A DNA stretch of 64,000 nucleotides, from positions 310,001-374,000 of the forward strand of contig NZ_CP113797.1 in NCBI RefSeq assembly GCF_026802175.1, given 5' to 3'. Below the pieces are notes generated by a model. The model ran no database searches, was not told where the DNA came from, and was given only the letters and a program-made list of their open reading frames with translations. Position numbers and translations under genes: made by a program. This DNA comes from Thermocoleostomius sinensis A174 (lineage in GTDB: Bacteria > Cyanobacteriota > Cyanobacteriia > Elainellales > Elainellaceae). The first letter of the stretch is position 1; each line of letters starts with the position of its first letter. Positions 6,708 through 53,334 of this stretch are shown one piece after another.

Positions 6708-8540
6708 ATGACTCTGATCATCGAGTTACTTGGACACCCACGGCTAGTGCGCGATGCTGTAAATTGGCGGCCAAAGGGACGCAAGAGTTGGTGTCTGCTT
6801 GCTTACTTGTTGCTAGCGAACCAGCCAGTTTCGCGTGAGCGTTTAGCGGAGTTGCTCTTTCCAGCAGCGGATGATCCGCTTGGTGCATTGCGCTGGAGCT
6901 TGTCAGATCTGCGCCGTGTGCTTGGTCCAGACTGCAAACTCTTTGGTAATCCGCTTGTGATTACGCTGCCGTCCACCGCTTTTGTTGATGTCAACCTGGT
7001 GCGTCGAGGGCGCTGGGAGGAGTCCCTCGATCTGCCTGGTTTGGGTCAGGATCTCCTGACGGGTATCAACGTTTCGGGTAGTGCTGAATTCGAGCTATGG
7101 CTGTTCAGCGAAAGACATCGCCTTGACGGTGCTACCGAGGCCATTCTGCATGAAGCTACCTTAGCCTGTTTAGCAGAAGGACGCCTCAACGATGCACTCA
7201 AATGGGCCTCGCGGTTAGTGGATCTCAACCCGCTCGATGAGGCTCATCACGTTCTGCTGGTGCAGTGTCTTAGAACGGTGGGTGACGATGATGGAGCCGT
7301 TAAGCATGTGAAGTACTGTACTGACCTTTTCCGGCAGGAGTTCGGGGTCGAGCCAAGCCCAGTACTACAGGAGGCAAGTTGCCAACCCACAATCAATCTA
7401 TCTAAAACGCGCCCCTATTCTGTGCAGGCAATGCTTGAGGCTGGGGAAGCGGCGATCGGAGCGGGGGCTATTAGTCAAGGCTTGCAAACCTTACGGGAGG
7501 CAGTCGCTCTAGCCCGCCAAGGACAGAATCATCAACTCTTAGCTCGGGTGCTGGTGGCACTGGGTCACGCGCTTGTCCATGTGGGTAGAGGCAGTGACGA
7601 GGAAGGGGGGGCAGCCCTGCATGAAGCAGTCGTTCGCGCTCTTGAAGTGGGCGATGAGTGTACCGCTGCCATTGCTTATCGAGAACTAGCCTTCGCTGAC
7701 CTGGAGCGTGGGCGCTATGCCCGTGCCCTTGACCTAGTGGATGAGGCGAAACGTTTCGCCGCAGGAGACGACGCTGAAATGGCATGGATCGAATGTATCG
7801 AAGGGGCCTGTCTGAGCGATCAGGCCCGTTATTCTCAATCACTGAAAATACTGAGTTCCGCTGTGCAACGGGCTGAGCGCACCGAGTCTCCAGAGGCTTT
7901 AGTGTTTGCCCGCTGTTGGGTAGGCCGGTTGCACTTGTTGCGGGGTGAATTGGCTGAGGCAACGCCAGTGCTTGAACAGGCACTAGAGGAGGCACGTGCT
8001 TGCTGGATGGCGCTTGCCCCACTTCCCGAGTCTCTTCTGGCTGAGGTACACCTGCTAACTGGCGATCTTGACACAGCCGAGAGCCGACTCGAACGTGCTT
8101 TTGTCATGGGACGACAACTCGACGATCCGTGTTTAGAGAGCATCGCCATGCGTGGACTGGGGCTAGTAGCCGTCGCCCAGGGGCAAGATAGCCGGGGCTA
8201 TCAGATGCTCATTGATGCACCACGAATTTCTCGACGGCTACCCGATAGCTATCGATGGATTGAGGCTTATGGGCTTGATGCATTGTGTCGGGTGGCGATC
8301 GACCAAGAACAAGCGGCAGCACCCCACTGGATTGCTGACCTCGAATCACTGGCCGCACGATGTGGAATGCGCGAGCTTTTTGTTCGGGTACTGTTGCATA
8401 AGGCTATGCTGGGTGAGCCAGGTGCGTTCGAGCTAGCGTGTGATTTAGCGACTGCGATCGATAACCCTTTCCTCCATAAAACCATTGCTCAAATTAAGCT
8501 CCGGAAGGTTTCACACGCTGGTTCACACGGACATCATTGA
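6708..8540 (+). CDS. BTAD-domain (SARP/AfsR-like) transcriptional regulator with TPR-like C-terminus, 610 aa
   Basis: Residues 1-95 form an OmpR-type winged helix (IELLGHPRLV, RKSWCLLAYLLL, LSDLRRVLG). Residues 100-230 form a bacterial transcriptional activator domain (LACLAEGRLNDALKWASRL, LVDLNPLDEAHHVLLVQCL, FGVEPSP). The rest, to about 600, is made of TPR-like helical repeats rich in EALxxAR and GDxDTAExxLExA patterns. The family activates nearby biosynthetic genes, mainly in actinobacteria. I chose ATG 6708, preceded by AGGG, over the in-frame TTG at 6690. The FAD oxidoreductase gene starts 43 bp downstream, so the two are probably co-transcribed and the regulator may control it. There is no HIP1 site in the gene, suggesting transfer. 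Confidence 0.85.
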   Translation: MTLIIELLGHPRLVRDAVNWRPKGRKSWCLLAYLLLANQPVSRERLAELLFPAADDPLGALRWSLSDLRRVLGPDCKLFGNPLVITLPSTAFVDVNLVRRGRWEESLDLPGLGQDLLTGINVSGSAEFELWLFSERHRLDGATEAILHEATLACLAEGRLNDALKWASRLVDLNPLDEAHHVLLVQCLRTVGDDDGAVKHVKYCTDLFRQEFGVEPSPVLQEASCQPTINLSKTRPYSVQAMLEAGEAAIGAGAISQGLQTLREAVALARQGQNHQLLARVLVALGHALVHVGRGSDEEGGAALHEAVVRALEVGDECTAAIAYRELAFADLERGRYARALDLVDEAKRFAAGDDAEMAWIECIEGACLSDQARYSQSLKILSSAVQRAERTESPEALVFARCWVGRLHLLRGELAEATPVLEQALEEARACWMALAPLPESLLAEVHLLTGDLDTAESRLERAFVMGRQLDDPCLESIAMRGLGLVAVAQGQDSRGYQMLIDAPRISRRLPDSYRWIEAYGLDALCRVAIDQEQAAAPHWIADLESLAARCGMRELFVRVLLHKAMLGEPGAFELACDLATAIDNPFLHKTIAQIKLRKVSHAGSHGHH

Positions 8541-8567
8541 TCATAGTGAGATTGGTTAGCAGCCTCA

Positions 8568-8577
8568 TGAGGAGGAA
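8568..8577 (+). promoter_or_regulatory. Strong ribosome binding site of the FAD oxidoreductase
   Basis: A purine run GAGGAGGAAA ends about 6 bp before the ATG at 8584. It is stronger than the sites of most genes in this window and confirms the ATG as start. Confidence 0.8.
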
Positions 8578-8583
8578 AGTACC

Positions 8584-9966
8584 ATGTCATCTCACACCTT
8601 CAATGAAGTCGCTCTAAAGGAACTGCGCGACGGCTTTACTGGCAACCTGATCACACCCGACAATTCAACCTATGATGAGGCTCGAAAAATCTTCAATGCG
8701 ATGATCGATCGCCGTCCCAGCCTTATTGCTCAATGTGCTTGTGTAGAAGATGTTGTCCGCAGTATTCAGGTTGCCCGTCATTATGGTCTTGAGATTGCAG
8801 TGCGTGGTGGCGGGCACGGTGTTGCGGGTAAGGCGCTTACCGAAGGTGGACTCGTCATCGACCTGCGGCAAATGCATTCCGTCTCAGTTGATCCGATTGA
8901 GCGCACGGCGACGGTTGGGGGTGGAGCTACGATGAGTCACCTCGATCGAGCGACAGAACCCTATGGACTGGCGACAACAGGGGGACGAGCCTCTACAACA
9001 GGCGTGGGTGGATACATCCTGGGAGGTGGCAGTGGTTGGCTTGACCGCAAGTTTGGTCTCGCCTGTGACAACCTCCTCTCCGTCGAACTCGTGACAGCCA
9101 GTGGTGCTGTGATTCATGCCAGCGAAAACGAACACTCAGAACTCTTTTGGGCACTTCATGGTGGGGGTGGTAACTTCGGAGTTGCAACTTCATTTACATT
9201 GCGTTTGTACGAATTATCGTCAGTCAGCGTGATGTTGTTAATATGGTTGCCTGAAGCCGGGGTAAACGTGCTTCGTACCTACCGAGATTTTATGGAATCA
9301 GCCCCTGATGACATCGGCGGTGGTGCGCTTTTTCTGACTGCCCCTGATGAGGAATTCGTGCCCGCATCGTTAGTTGGGAAGATGGCTTTCGTCGTTCTCA
9401 TTACCTATGCTGGCTCATTATCTGAAGCCTATCAGGTCGCAGCCCCAATGCTAGAACTAGGACATGAGGGAGAGTTTATTTCAGAAATGTCCTATGCCGA
9501 TCTCCAATGTATGCTCGACGATCCTCCCGGACATCGCAACTATTGTTCTGTGGAGTATCTTGATGCTTTCCCGAATGAAGCCATCGATCGGTTCTGTGCC
9601 CATGCAAAGAACATGATTGTACCTTCAGCGTCTCAGCATATTCTTCTACCGCAGGGAGGTGCACTAGGACGGGGGCGCTCTGACTATCCGTTGCCGTGGC
9701 GACAGGCTCCCTGGCTGATTCATCCCTACGGTTTATATCAAGATTCGGCTGATGATCAGCGGGTTCGGCAGTGGACTCACGATACTCGATCTGCCCTCAA
9801 ACCGTGGGAGAGCGGGGCCGTCTATCTCAACTTCATTGGTGACGAGGGGCAGGATCGGGTGGTTGCTGGACTTGGACAGGAGAACTATGCAAGGCTGGCA
9901 AACGTTAAAGCTCAATATGATCCAGAAAACGTCTTTCACTTGAACCACAATATCAAGCCGACTTAA
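8584..9966 (+). CDS. Berberine-bridge-type FAD-linked oxidoreductase, 460 aa
   Basis: The N-terminal PCMH-type FAD domain has VRGGGHGVAGKAL with the His (residue 78) that carries the 8-alpha-histidyl FAD bond, and TTGVGGYILGGGSGWLDRKF for pyrophosphate binding. The C-terminal BBE motif is YARLANVKAQYDPENVFHLN. The position that is Cys in doubly linked enzymes is Ala136 here (GGRASTTGVGG), so FAD should be linked through His only, as in many bacterial members. These enzymes oxidise alcohols, sugars or secondary-metabolite precursors with O2, making H2O2; the substrate is unknown. There is no signal peptide. The gene follows the BTAD regulator by 43 bp and, like it, lacks HIP1 sites. Confidence 0.9.
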   Translation: MSSHTFNEVALKELRDGFTGNLITPDNSTYDEARKIFNAMIDRRPSLIAQCACVEDVVRSIQVARHYGLEIAVRGGGHGVAGKALTEGGLVIDLRQMHSVSVDPIERTATVGGGATMSHLDRATEPYGLATTGGRASTTGVGGYILGGGSGWLDRKFGLACDNLLSVELVTASGAVIHASENEHSELFWALHGGGGNFGVATSFTLRLYELSSVSVMLLIWLPEAGVNVLRTYRDFMESAPDDIGGGALFLTAPDEEFVPASLVGKMAFVVLITYAGSLSEAYQVAAPMLELGHEGEFISEMSYADLQCMLDDPPGHRNYCSVEYLDAFPNEAIDRFCAHAKNMIVPSASQHILLPQGGALGRGRSDYPLPWRQAPWLIHPYGLYQDSADDQRVRQWTHDTRSALKPWESGAVYLNFIGDEGQDRVVAGLGQENYARLANVKAQYDPENVFHLNHNIKPT

Positions 9967-9982
9967 TCGGCTCGGTTTGCCG

Positions 9983-10777
9983 CTACAGGCTTAACACTAA
10001 TTGTAATCCCGGTTCTGGGCGAGCATCGTCTGGTAATGGATCGGGGTCGGGTCGCATGGCGGGACAATACCGCGCATAGGCACATCGATCGCACTGTGCC
10101 CCTGGAAAGGGTTGCCACCGTCGATCGCGCCGCAACTCAACGGCCAAATCGCTGACAACAGACTCAACTTGCTCACGATGGGCGGGTGTGGCTTCAAAGC
10201 TAATTTTTTCGCCAGTACGCAGATAGAGCAGACTGAGGCGCTTGAGGGAGCGTTGATAGCGTTGTTCCAAGGCTAGATAGTAAAGCCCAATCTGCAAATC
10301 AATCTCGTCGGGTTCGGATGGCTCAATTTCTTTGGCAGACTTATAGTCAATTAGTTCAAGCCCGTCATCTAGGTAATCTAGCCGATCGTAGCGTCCAGAT
10401 AGAGTGAATTCTAGATTGTCTACCCGCAAACAGCCCTGAATTCTACCTTCCACCGCCACTGGGCGTCGCATCGCCGATTGAGTGGTAATGAAGGTGTGAT
10501 AGTAGCGCCGGAGAATCGATCGTCCTTCTGTAATTTGGCTAGACGTCAGATCGCCGACCTGCTGATTCCAACAATATTCAAACCAATCCCAACGTGGAAT
10601 CGGATCTTGATAGTGCCAGTCTTGATAAATTTGCGCCAACGCTTGATGCAGTGAAGTTCCCAAGGCAGCCGAGCCAAAAAAGGCAGCGCTTTCCAGCCGC
10701 CGTTCATAGCGAAAATAGTAAGCACGAGGGCAACGATAGTAGGACTGTAACTTGGCAGCAGAGAGGAGGTAGGACAT
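9983..10777 (-). CDS. Stand-alone RecB/Cas4-like PD-(D/E)XK nuclease with four-Cys Fe-S motif, 264 aa
   Basis: The start is placed at the internal ATG 10777 (MSYLLSAAKLQSYYRCP), where similarity to the family begins; the longer frame adds 34 poor residues. The nuclease core reads SGRYDRLD followed by LELIDYKSAK (PD-(D/E)XK acidic and Lys residues) and QIGLYYLAL (QxxxY motif). One Cys near the N-terminus (YRCPRAY) plus CDRCAYARYC near the C-terminus give the 4-Cys pattern of the [4Fe-4S]-stabilised AddB/Cas4/RecB class. Family members are DNA exonucleases or nickases. No helicase, CRISPR or cas gene is near, so it acts alone or with remote partners. AGGAGG (on the minus strand the complement lies outside the gene) does not decide the start. 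Confidence 0.87.
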   Translation of the reverse strand: MSYLLSAAKLQSYYRCPRAYYFRYERRLESAAFFGSAALGTSLHQALAQIYQDWHYQDPIPRWDWFEYCWNQQVGDLTSSQITEGRSILRRYYHTFITTQSAMRRPVAVEGRIQGCLRVDNLEFTLSGRYDRLDYLDDGLELIDYKSAKEIEPSEPDEIDLQIGLYYLALEQRYQRSLKRLSLLYLRTGEKISFEATPAHREQVESVVSDLAVELRRDRRWQPFPGAQCDRCAYARYCPAMRPDPDPLPDDARPEPGLQLVLSL

Positions 10778-44858: not shown

Positions 44859-47537
44859 ATGGGGTTCAGTCTGCGTAACGTATTTCAAGCGTTCCAATTT
44901 GTTGAGACTCAAAATTCAACCAATCCATCATCGAGACAGTCGATAAAACAATCTATGCCGCATGGCAGTTGGGGATATCAGAACCGTCAGGCAATTGTTC
45001 AGCAAACAATTCAACCCAATCAACGAGGACGAGTTCGCTATTGGGGTTCTGACTGGTTTGCTCGGTGTCATCAAGATATTTTTATTTCGCCTGGCGAAGT
45101 GGTCGATATTGTCGGTGTAGAAAACATCACACTATTAGTAGAACCTGCATTCCTATTATCTTGCTCAAACCTTGGCTTAGCTAAGGTAAAACAAGCGTGG
45201 CAGCAACGTGGTTGGGCAGCGACCCCCATCCGACGAGAGTCTGAATCCGTTAAGCTACTGATGTCCTCAAGCCAAGATTTGAACGAAGAAGCGGCGATCG
45301 AAACCTGGAAGCGCTTTATTCAGGGGAAGCCTATCTATATCACCAAATTCAAAGCCTGTTGCGAGTTGCTGGGCCTAAACTGGCAAGAAATTGTGGGATA
45401 TGGTCATACCCGTCCCGATCGTCTCTCAAATTTCTCTAATCCAGAACCAGCACCGGAGAATAGCACTGAAAACAACTCAGAATCAGAACCATCGGACTTG
45501 AACTCGGCTCCCTTCGTGGGGCGATCGGACGCCATGATTGATTTGGCTCGGTTGGCGCGATCGGGAGCAACAGCAATTTTGATTTTAGGAGAAGGGGGGA
45601 TTGGCAAAACGACCTTGGCTCAACAGTATTTTGCTCAGCAGGGGTTTGATTTGGTATTGGAAGGCTGGATGGCCAAACAAACGCAAAACATTACCTCCGC
45701 CGAAGGAATGGTGCAAGATTGGCTGCGGCGGTACTTTGGCGAAGAACCCGCTCGTGACTTTCAGGCTGCCTTGAAACAGCTAAAGCGACGGTTGCAAGAG
45801 CGTCCCTCCGACCAGTCTCCCAAAATTGGAGTGCTGATTGATAACTTGGAACCAGCCCTCGATCGCGAGGGTCACATCATCGCTGCTCACCGAGACTATG
45901 CAATGCTGCTAGAGGTTCTTTCAGATCGATCGGTGCATTCTTTAACTTTAATTACCAGCCGCGAACCGCTGCGGGAAAGCAATGTCAACGCCCAACCGTA
46001 TATTCTGCCAGGTTTAAGTGTTACGGCATGGCAACAGTTCTTTCAGAATCAGCAAATTGACGCCCAGTCTTCTGCCTTGACCCAAATCCACAAAGCCTAT
46101 AGCGGCAACGCCAAGGCCATGACAATTCTGAGCAGCACCATTAGCCTAGACTATGCTGGCAATCTAGAGACGTTCTGGCAAGAAAACCAAGCGAACCTCC
46201 TGCAACAAACCGACTTAGAAGATCTCGTTGCCAGCCAATTTGAGCGACTTCAGCGCATTTATCCAGAGGCCTATCAATTGCTACTGCGTTTAGGTTGTTA
46301 TCGTTATCAAAGTATTTCGGCAGTGCCAGCCGATGCGCTGTATTGCTTACTGTGGGATGTGCCACAACAACAGCGGCATAGCGTTATTCGGTTTTTGGAA
46401 GACTCGTTTCTTGTGGAAGTGAAAAGCGATCGCGGTCACGACAAATACTATCTGCATCCTCTCATTCAAGCAAAAGCCATCGCTTTACTCAAGGCAAGCC
46501 CTGACTGGCAATCGACTAATCAACGCGCTGCTGAGTTTTGGACGACCTATGTAAAGACAATCGAAACCATTGAGGATGCACTCACAGCTTATCAAGGCTA
46601 CTATCATTACTTTTACATTGGCGAGTACGAAGCCGCTGCTAGTGTGTTGCTCTACGAGCGAGACAGCCAATGGTCAAAACAAGAACCACTAGGCGTTTCG
46701 TTCTATCGATTTGGACTGCTGCGACGGATGATTTCTGCTATCAATCGCCTGCTCGATCGCATTCCACCCGGCCCTGTGCTTGGAAAACTACTTAGTATTT
46801 TAGGAGACCTCTATTGGCTGAATGGCAATATTCACCGTTCGATCGCGTGCAATGAAAAGGCGAAAGAGATTGCCGTCCAATTTGGGTTGCAGGACTTAGA
46901 AATTTCGTCGTTGTTTAACATAGGGCTGTGCAAAATTCAGCTTTGGGAACTGACCGATGCGCTAGCATTATTTCAAACGCTGATCACATTAGCTGAAAAT
47001 GCCAAACCGAATCGCCATACGGTGAGTACCTGGTTTTGTTTAGCTTATTTATACTCGTGCTTGGGACAAAAGCAAGAAGCCGCCAATTTGGCAAAAAAGG
47101 TATCTGAGGAATATGCTCAACTGAGTTCTGATGCCTGGAGTCGAGGCTACAGTCTGCTGTTTTTGGGACTAACGATGAAGAATTTGGGCAACGATCGAGA
47201 AGCTGAACGAATGTATCGCCTTGCTAGAGATTATGCCGAGCAAAGCCACTATACGCAAGTGAAAGCCAGTGCGCTGAACGGATTGGCTACCATCGATCGC
47301 GATCGGTTGAACTTCCGAGATGCCATCGCCAATCATCTTGCAGCCCAACGATTACTTGAGCGAATTGAAGCCAGAGGTGAATTAGCCGAAGTACACTATC
47401 AGCTTGGTTTGACGTATCTCAAAATGAATGAAATAGCTGAAGGAAAATCCAGCTTACAACAAGCGATCGAACTGTTTCAGAAAATGGGTGCACCCAAGCA
47501 AGTGGAACGAGTACAGCAAACATTAGAGATGATATAG
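44859..47537 (+). CDS. STAND (NB-ARC-type) ATPase with NfeD-like N-terminal domain and TPR-like C-terminus, 892 aa
   Basis: Residues 55-97 (GRVRYWGSDWFARCHQDI, ISPGEVVDIVGVENITLLVE) resemble the small beta-barrel domain at the C-terminus of NfeD proteins. Residues 105-180 are a helical domain of the type found in front of cyanobacterial STAND ATPases (VKQAWQQRGWA, LGLNWQEIVG). Residues 190-215 are a linker. Residues 218-560 are the ATPase: PFVGRSDAMIDL, P-loop GEGGIGKT (244-251), Walker B IGVLIDNLE (323-331), LITSREPL sensor. Residues 600-890 are TPR-like (FNIGLCKIQLWELTDALALF). STAND proteins act as switches in regulation, cell death or phage defence. It stands alone. Confidence 0.9.
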   Translation: MGFSLRNVFQAFQFVETQNSTNPSSRQSIKQSMPHGSWGYQNRQAIVQQTIQPNQRGRVRYWGSDWFARCHQDIFISPGEVVDIVGVENITLLVEPAFLLSCSNLGLAKVKQAWQQRGWAATPIRRESESVKLLMSSSQDLNEEAAIETWKRFIQGKPIYITKFKACCELLGLNWQEIVGYGHTRPDRLSNFSNPEPAPENSTENNSESEPSDLNSAPFVGRSDAMIDLARLARSGATAILILGEGGIGKTTLAQQYFAQQGFDLVLEGWMAKQTQNITSAEGMVQDWLRRYFGEEPARDFQAALKQLKRRLQERPSDQSPKIGVLIDNLEPALDREGHIIAAHRDYAMLLEVLSDRSVHSLTLITSREPLRESNVNAQPYILPGLSVTAWQQFFQNQQIDAQSSALTQIHKAYSGNAKAMTILSSTISLDYAGNLETFWQENQANLLQQTDLEDLVASQFERLQRIYPEAYQLLLRLGCYRYQSISAVPADALYCLLWDVPQQQRHSVIRFLEDSFLVEVKSDRGHDKYYLHPLIQAKAIALLKASPDWQSTNQRAAEFWTTYVKTIETIEDALTAYQGYYHYFYIGEYEAAASVLLYERDSQWSKQEPLGVSFYRFGLLRRMISAINRLLDRIPPGPVLGKLLSILGDLYWLNGNIHRSIACNEKAKEIAVQFGLQDLEISSLFNIGLCKIQLWELTDALALFQTLITLAENAKPNRHTVSTWFCLAYLYSCLGQKQEAANLAKKVSEEYAQLSSDAWSRGYSLLFLGLTMKNLGNDREAERMYRLARDYAEQSHYTQVKASALNGLATIDRDRLNFRDAIANHLAAQRLLERIEARGELAEVHYQLGLTYLKMNEIAEGKSSLQQAIELFQKMGAPKQVERVQQTLEMI

Positions 47538-51159: not shown

Positions 51160-53334
51160 TCAACAAGCGGCAGGTGTTTTTAGTCGCTGAATCTCAGTTT
51201 CAGTCAGTTCATATAAGTCATAAACCCATCGATCGATTTGCTGATCAATTGTGTCAATTTGCTGTTGTAGCCTGTGCTGTTCATCGGGTGAAGCGGCTAA
51301 TTTGAATTGGCAGTGCAACGATTGCATGTGATCCACCGCTTGCACCAGTCGATCGTGTTTTTGTTTATCAGTTGAGCAATTCAAATTCAGCGATCGAATT
51401 GGCAGTTGTTCTAGAAAGGTTTTAGCGATGTTTACGGTTAATCGCGATTGATTAGTAAATTTTTGAATATAAAAGTCATTTAACAACTGAGAGTTCAACA
51501 ACGCCAACACATAGCGAATATCATAGGGGCAATCTGCTTTAAGCAAAATATTGTTAGTTGAGGCAAAGGTATAATAATACTCTGTATCTAATACACCCGT
51601 TAATGCTCTGGTTCCACCACCAATTCGTCGTAGAATAATTTTTTCATGGCTGTCCCAAACATAATTTGGACGTGGACGATGTAGCTGTGAACGATCGAAC
51701 AACAGATACTTGTTACGAAACGCAATGGCATAGCGCGAAACATCTTTACCTTCTAAAAGGCGCTGATGGCGATCAGTGAAAGGATGCGTACTAATTTGGT
51801 CTTTACGACAAACAATTCCTTCGATGATCTCTTGGGTCAGAGTACTTAAACGAGCAGAGGTGCTCATAATTTTTTCAAATATTTGATATTGCTGACTTGA
51901 ACTCAGGCTAAAAACATAGCTTGTATTATTTAGAAATAGATGTTTGTTGAGAATACGAATGGGTGCATTAGGTGCAATCGATTGAGCAACCATTAGCGTA
52001 GAGCAAGTTGCATTTTTTCCCAAAATTAACAGTGTTACGGATGCTGTAATAGCGCTAATCGAGTCGTGTCCCAACTCAACAATTTGTTCTATGTGGCACT
52101 GATCTAAAATATATTTTCGAGCCTGTTCATAAACAGTTGTTCTCAACAAAGTATTGGGTACAACAATACCAATGCGTCCGTTTGGATGCAAAAGTTCAAT
52201 AAACTTAAACAAAAACACAGTAAATAAATTAATTTTTCCAGTCTGCTTGGCTCTACTTGTTTCAGTTAGGCTCGATCGCGCGAAATAATGACGTTGATAA
52301 TAATGTTTCAGTCGATCGTCAAACTTTGCAGTGCGTGTAAATAACCAAGGCGGGTTGCCAATGACTACATCAAAACCACCGGATTTCATAGCATTTGGAA
52401 AAGCTTGTTCCCAATCGAGGGGTTTAATCCGATCATCAGCGTTAAAATCAACTGGTTCTTGTGCATAAAAATCAGAACCAACAAGCGCATCTCCACAGCA
52501 AATTTGTTTGTCTAGCCTAGTTACATCAAGCCGTAATGAATTCACTGTCCAGTTTGCTTGAGCGAGATGGATTGTTGCCTCCTCAGCACTACCTTCCAAT
52601 AGTTGCAGCAGCAACGATCGCTGAGTTAGCTTCACCGCAGTTGGATCACAATCAACACCATAAATGTGATTAAGCAAAATAGATTGTTTCGCCGCTAAGG
52701 TTAAGCGCCATTCGCCTCCATAGGTCTGATAAAACTGCGATCGATGCATGTCAGGATTATCGTTACCCTGCGTCTGATACCAATCAAGTAAATACTGATA
52801 GGCCCGCAGCAGAAACGCGCCGCCGCCGCAAGCTGGATCAAGAATGCGTAGCGCTTGAGACAGATCGAAGTCTAAACAAGTTACCCGTTGTTTTGCTAGG
52901 CAAGGTACAAGTGTATGCTTGATCAGGTAGTCAACCACATCCGGAGGCGTATAATAAGCCCCTTGAGCTTTGCGGTTGCTCGTTTGGTTCATGCTTAGGA
53001 ACTGTTCATAACTGTATCCCAATAGGGCGATCGGCAGGGCGTTGATCTCACATGTCTGCATGAAGCTCTCTAGCCGTTGCAGTGTTGCCTGCACCCAGCG
53101 ATCGAGAATCATTGTTGGCGACCCGTGAATAGGTTGAAGAATCAAACAATGCCAGCAAGCAGCTATTTTGCAGCTAGCGCAAAGATGCAAACAAATGGCG
53201 CGATCGATGATGTCCTGAACGGTGCGATCGAGTTGCGTTGCATCAAGCCCAACCTCAGACTCAGCTAGCCAGTTCCGCAAGAATTTGCGCCAACGAGCAA
53301 GGTCTTTCAGGAATGCCGTTAGCAATTCTCTCAT
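51160..53334 (-). CDS. Type IIG-like N6-adenine DNA methyltransferase lacking a nuclease domain (paralogue 2), 724 aa
   Basis: It has the same architecture as the enzyme at 2995-5133: YYTPPDVVDY (motif X, 127 onward), ILDPACGGGAF (motif I, about 164-174), GVDCDP (about 226), VIGNPPW (motif IV, about 324-330) and a TaqI-like C-terminal specificity region. The N-terminal 50 residues match the WRxxL...VQDIIDRAI linker that follows the nuclease in type IIG enzymes; the nuclease is missing, and the 155 bp to psaD hold no coding fragment. A Cys cluster (C48, C52, C55, C60, C63) near the N-terminus could bind metal. The catalytic motif is NPPW, against NPPY in paralogue 1. The two may recognise different sites. 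Confidence 0.9.
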   Translation of the reverse strand: MRELLTAFLKDLARWRKFLRNWLAESEVGLDATQLDRTVQDIIDRAICLHLCASCKIAACWHCLILQPIHGSPTMILDRWVQATLQRLESFMQTCEINALPIALLGYSYEQFLSMNQTSNRKAQGAYYTPPDVVDYLIKHTLVPCLAKQRVTCLDFDLSQALRILDPACGGGAFLLRAYQYLLDWYQTQGNDNPDMHRSQFYQTYGGEWRLTLAAKQSILLNHIYGVDCDPTAVKLTQRSLLLQLLEGSAEEATIHLAQANWTVNSLRLDVTRLDKQICCGDALVGSDFYAQEPVDFNADDRIKPLDWEQAFPNAMKSGGFDVVIGNPPWLFTRTAKFDDRLKHYYQRHYFARSSLTETSRAKQTGKINLFTVFLFKFIELLHPNGRIGIVVPNTLLRTTVYEQARKYILDQCHIEQIVELGHDSISAITASVTLLILGKNATCSTLMVAQSIAPNAPIRILNKHLFLNNTSYVFSLSSSQQYQIFEKIMSTSARLSTLTQEIIEGIVCRKDQISTHPFTDRHQRLLEGKDVSRYAIAFRNKYLLFDRSQLHRPRPNYVWDSHEKIILRRIGGGTRALTGVLDTEYYYTFASTNNILLKADCPYDIRYVLALLNSQLLNDFYIQKFTNQSRLTVNIAKTFLEQLPIRSLNLNCSTDKQKHDRLVQAVDHMQSLHCQFKLAASPDEQHRLQQQIDTIDQQIDRWVYDLYELTETEIQRLKTPAAC

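Follow-up and report, generated by a model that had tools for sequence, protein, structure and literature searches.

An NfeD-like barrel fused to a cyanobacterial HTH-STAND-TPR protein, and its separate counterparts in head-to-head gene pairs

A protein of Thermocoleostomius sinensis A174 carries an NfeD-like beta barrel at the N-terminus of an HTH-STAND-TPR switch protein, and in related cyanobacteria these two parts recur as separate genes arranged head to head. The gene lies in the window, a stretch of 64,000 nucleotides (NZ_CP113797.1, positions 310,001 to 374,000). To our knowledge, NfeD barrels have been known only as stomatin or flotillin partners, and the fusion together with the widespread head-to-head pairing offers a second, testable partner class for them. 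A large group of cyanobacterial STAND proteins has had no known output, and the fusion and pairing now point to candidates for it; because the fusion fixes the association at the protein level, interaction tests should be straightforward. The NfeD-STAND partnership is apparently undescribed and probably acts at a membrane.

The earlier note on this DNA had proposed the order NfeD-like barrel, helical adaptor, NB-ARC-type ATPase and TPR repeats, and had called this order unusual. Both statements stand. The ORF is real and conserved (Table 1), NfeD is described elsewhere as a partner of SPFH/stomatin proteins (PMC2636767), and a literature search covering papers outside subscription found nothing that joins NfeD with a STAND ATPase. 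Two segments are redefined: the barrel is present but occupies aa 43-96 rather than 55-97, and the domain taken for a helical adaptor (aa 97-185) is an XRE-derived helix-turn-helix.

Table 1. Coordinates of the fusion gene, its parts and related genes. Positions are those of the window unless a locus number (L) is given.
Feature	Coordinates	Strand	Basis and remarks
NfeD-HTH-STAND-TPR gene	44859..47537	+	ORF, ATG start, 892 aa; full-length orthologues 44-60% identical
N-terminal leader, aa 1-42	44859..44984	+	Alignments; low pLDDT, predicted disordered
NfeD-like beta barrel, aa 43-96	44985..45146	+	PF01957; PDB profile matches 2k5h, 3wwv, 3cp0; Foldseek
XRE-derived helix-turn-helix domain, aa 97-185	45147..45413	+	Own HMM; hhalign; HTH_3 in L197 at the same place
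STAND (NB-ARC-like) NTPase, aa 218-470	45510..46268	+	AAA_16, AAA_22 and NB-ARC matches; invariant motifs
Walker A GEGGIGKT, aa 244-251	45588..45611	+	G244, G247, G249, K250, T251 invariant
Walker B-like VLIDNLEP, aa 324-331	45828..45851	+	D328, N329, E331 invariant
Post-NTPase region, aa 471-560	46269..46538	+	LHP (aa 532-534) replaces MHD; L532, H533 nearly invariant
TPR-containing sensor region, aa 561-892	46539..47534	+	TPR_12, TPR_2, TPR_MalT; PDB matches including archaeal TPR sensor PH0952
Eco57I-like DNA methyltransferase	51160-53334	-	724 aa; TaqI_C specificity domain
Head-to-head NfeD/STAND loci outside the family	L197 (f14); L230, L232 (f10); L241 (f4); L242 (f2)		
Small NfeD genes in tandem, at least three per array	L230:8465-10470; L231:6920-8029; L246:5297-6403		Some copies near-identical
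Conserved small 2-TM protein	L184:3052-3312; L179:3084-3419; L235:5430-5714; L117:288-572		
Zinc-ribbon + TM small protein	L100:9397-9690; L176:3079-3390; L117:568-876		Same divergent operons
Companion protein, about 430 aa	L235:8850-10121; L098:5679-6980; L100:5796-7091; L165:99-1442		
Methyltransferase-YbaK protein	L050:2-1720; L052:6103-8037; L055:6821-8635; L062:10311-12152; L063:5149-7002; others		

The assignment of the barrel is carried by both profile and structure comparisons. Pfam places NfeD (PF01957) at aa 43-96 with 39.1 bits (cut-off 29.1; E = 8.4e-10), and a profile of 17 barrels, drawn from the window protein and standalone proteins, finds 2k5h, 3wwv and 3cp0, all solved NfeD structures, with E values of 7e-8 to 1e-6. 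An AlphaFold2 model of aa 1-225, computed from the window sequence and sequences from related loci, predicts an OB-like five-stranded barrel at aa 44-96, with pLDDT values mostly of 74-89 per 10-residue block in the barrel and low values elsewhere. Structural comparison with NfeD had been set beforehand as the test able to refute this assignment, and in Foldseek the predicted barrel superposes on solved NfeD domains, at 1.0 Å over 53 columns for PH1510-C (3wwv), 1.1 Å for 3cp0, 1.4 Å for YuaF (2k14) and 2.0 Å for YbbJ (8z5g).

The barrel therefore shares its five-stranded fold with PH1510-C, YuaF and YbbJ, but it is fused N-terminally to an HTH-STAND-TPR protein that has no SPFH gene alongside and no TM segment or ClpP domain of its own. 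A stomatin-type or protease partner was not borne out: neither an SPFH gene nor a protease gene lies near the fusion gene, and none of the six Band_7 genes of this genome falls inside the window. Two of the six adjoin TM-type NfeD genes at other sites in this genome. The leader preceding the barrel holds a short hydrophobic motif, FxLxNVFQAFQ, that resembles one in standalone small NfeD proteins. An N-terminal amphipathic helix was considered as a membrane anchor and rejected; the hydrophobic moment of the window protein does not exceed that of shuffled sequences, which leaves direct membrane binding unsupported.

An HMM built on this segment of the fused proteins (aa 97-185) matches the extreme N-termini of many cyanobacterial STAND proteins (E values of 1e-12 to 1e-20), indicating that the NfeD barrel is an addition ahead of a standard cyanobacterial HTH-STAND N-terminus. 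By hhalign this segment scores 99.6% to that STAND N-terminal domain and 97% to XRE-type N-termini. One XRE-type relative (L197) has HTH_3 (PF01381) at the corresponding position, and the N-terminus of another relative (L241) matches GerE/Sigma70_r4. Pfam HTH models give no match in the window protein itself, for which the relation to XRE helix-turn-helix domains comes from profile comparison only.

The features that mark STAND/NB-ARC proteins are present, namely a P-loop, an acidic Walker B, TSRE-like and MHD-like motifs, and C-terminal repeats. AAA_16, AAA_22 and NB-ARC match aa 218-334 below their respective cut-offs (15.5 bits against 23.5 for NB-ARC), and the relative L065 clears the NB-ARC cut-off at 24.9 bits. 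TPR_12 and TPR_2 score above cut-off at aa 757-882. Since 16 homologues show little or no variation at the P-loop (244-251), D328-N329, T366-S367-R368-E369, N417-A418-K419-A420 and L532-H533, the ATPase looks intact from its sequence. By analogy with the NB-ARC family fold, aa 471-560 probably form a winged helix.

Of 36 genomes sampled from the order, 16 carry a full-length orthologue, all of them in one family (Elainellaceae), and the named relatives that carry the fusion include Elainella saxicola and Drouetiella hepatica. When the best six candidates per genome were scored across a phylum sample of 386 genomes, the window genome gave the only full-length match and the 385 others gave none. 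The fused STAND cores form one clade in a tree (support 99/100), as do the fused NfeD barrels (97/89), which fits a single fusion event. The window fusion is sister to that of one and the same genome in both trees. Two fusion copies are split into two ORFs (L056:9972-12661 and L059:9892-12599), reflecting a frameshift, a pseudogene or a draft-assembly error.

Standalone genes for small soluble NfeD proteins of about 60-150 aa are common. Within the family, 14 of 43 have a STAND gene as the closest neighbour that encodes 120 aa or more, and in all 14 cases the two genes are head to head. None of the 43 has a STAND gene as co-directional neighbour, and none of 239 background genes at control loci is a STAND gene. 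With relatedness ignored, this pairing has a binomial probability below 1e-10 even at 2% STAND genes per flank, and the orientation a p of 6e-7; the counts were made with a STAND HMM built from the family of the window protein, on mutually related loci and mechanically called ORFs. One such pair within the family (L065) consists of an unfused 801-aa STAND core (7066-9468) and a 96-aa NfeD protein (9726-10013). The window genome also has a WD40 STAND gene that faces a separate NfeD gene in head-to-head orientation (G000:C1, about 2,345,000; L095).

Four other families likewise have a small NfeD gene facing, head to head, the STAND-TPR core of the window protein (HMM E at most 1e-78). Among out-of-family small NfeD loci, taken from the best NfeD matches, 7 of 18 have a STAND gene nearby, in head-to-head orientation in six of them and tail to tail in L233, whereas no STAND gene was found near TM-type NfeD genes serving as out-of-family controls with shorter flanks. 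The proteins of L065 and of the tabulated out-of-family loci share the NTPase-TPR core with the window protein (HMM E values of 1e-78 to 1e-122), but their NfeD is a separate, head-to-head gene. On the basis of these pairs the window gene is read as a Rosetta-stone fusion, and the barrel as a dedicated partner of its STAND switch.

Two small membrane proteins recur in the divergent NfeD/STAND operons: a 2-TM protein with the motif KYxLLxxFGFTIACLI...FESLR, and a zinc-ribbon TM protein. A search for the former returned 21 loci; in 9 of the 17 non-seed loci it faces a STAND gene head to head, and several such loci hold an NfeD gene between the two. In family f6 both proteins face the STAND-TPR core head to head, and no small NfeD gene was seen in that family. 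The 2-TM protein faces several classes of HTH-STAND genes in this orientation, and its copy in L184 has no Pfam match. The occurrence of small TM proteins in the divergent operons of unfused NfeD genes makes a membrane-linked output plausible; of the membrane- or protease-linked effector suggested earlier, the first half thus survives, and the second is not supported, no protease partner being found near the gene.

These data lead us to propose that separate genes for a small NfeD protein and an HTH-STAND-TPR switch were fused, and that a trigger causes the product to oligomerise and its barrels to dock on a membrane protein, an explanation to which we give a little less than an even chance. 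Its observed footing consists of the domain identities, the single fusion, the head-to-head linkage and the recurring small TM proteins. The TPR region would bind the trigger, upon which the STAND ATPase would exchange ADP for ATP and oligomerise, presenting an array of clustered NfeD barrels. These barrels may dock on a membrane protein, for which the 2-TM and zinc-ribbon TM proteins are possible candidates in other species, and the result would be a membrane-located stress response, either protective or lethal. Against this explanation, the 2-TM protein is absent from the window genome, about two thirds of the family's small NfeD genes have no adjacent STAND gene, and the retained HTH domain also fits a DNA-bound role. 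More broadly, and only tentatively, small NfeD barrels, 2-TM proteins and zinc-ribbon TM proteins might constitute undescribed membrane output modules for cyanobacterial HTH-STAND proteins, with the window protein a covalently fused sensor and membrane-docking switch that can be likened to resistosome-type receptors.

The HTH domain is central to the chief alternative, possible but rather doubtful, in which the protein is a transcription regulator of the MalT/GutR/AfsR type whose HTH binds DNA upon activation of the TPR-STAND portion. Among relatives, the HTH would then control the divergent operon of small membrane proteins, and the fused NfeD would be a tethered co-regulator or anti-activator. 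All relatives do have an N-terminal HTH of one kind or another, the head-to-head layout of the unfused genes is typical of a regulator beside its target, and there are weak matches to AfsR (E = 5.7e-8) and the MalT TPR. However, the upstream neighbour of the window gene is on the same strand, leaving it with no divergent neighbour; the window HTH escapes every Pfam HTH model; and a simple regulator-target relation needs no NfeD fusion at the protein level. MalT, GutR and AfsR share the HTH, NB-ARC-like NTPase and TPR sensor with the window protein, which differs from them in its extra NfeD barrel, its degenerate XRE-type HTH and its lack of a known target gene.

An anti-phage or abortive-infection STAND protein, with the barrel as effector or EAD-like effector adaptor, is improbable. 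Prokaryotic conflict systems, including those of multicellular bacteria (PMC7159879, PMC8195603), do employ STAND proteins that combine a TPR sensor with an odd N-terminal domain, and they resemble the present case in having a small N-terminal domain on a STAND protein and standalone copies of it elsewhere; small NfeD genes are likewise multi-copy and sometimes in tandem arrays, as described for EADs. Most EADs are alpha-helical, however, those papers do not mention NfeD, and the window locus has neither an effector nor a defence context. The defence role raised by the earlier note is not supported, as a PADLOC scan of the neighbours of 15 orthologues found no defence system or defence island, and PADLOC models matched the window protein only through a generic TPR model. 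Moreover, no effector domain fused to NfeD appears among the matches listed, and the fusion gene occurs at one copy per genome within a family clade rather than patchily. Neutral accretion, a chance fusion adding little function, would accord with confinement to one family and with the two copies that appear frameshifted in draft genomes. We regard it as very unlikely, given that barrel residues are invariant in 13 fused proteins whose N-terminal parts are 38-53% identical to that of the window protein, and that NfeD genes of the partner class accompany STAND genes in several further families.

Genes near the orthologues include rpsF- and SbcC-like genes among the neighbours of the 15 examined, with an SbcC-like gene often following. 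A protein of roughly 610 aa that combines a methyltransferase with a YbaK/tRNA_edit domain is encoded in 10 of the 16 fusion genomes and missing from all 20 others (p = 3e-5 by Fisher's test with relatedness ignored), directly downstream of the fusion in 9 of the 10. It was found in none of the 386 phylum genomes, and its absence from the window genome rules it out as a constant partner. Its YbaK part is a YbaK/ProX-like tRNA-editing domain, and it also bears a novel N-terminal domain, for the placing of which its AlphaFold2 model is too poor.

An Eco57I-like DNA methyltransferase resembling type IIG enzymes lies 3.6 kb downstream of the fusion gene, and no homologue of it was found in the orthologous loci. 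The companion protein listed in Table 1, whose copy in L235 has no Pfam match, is encoded beside HTH-STAND genes of 450-470 aa that face NfeD genes.
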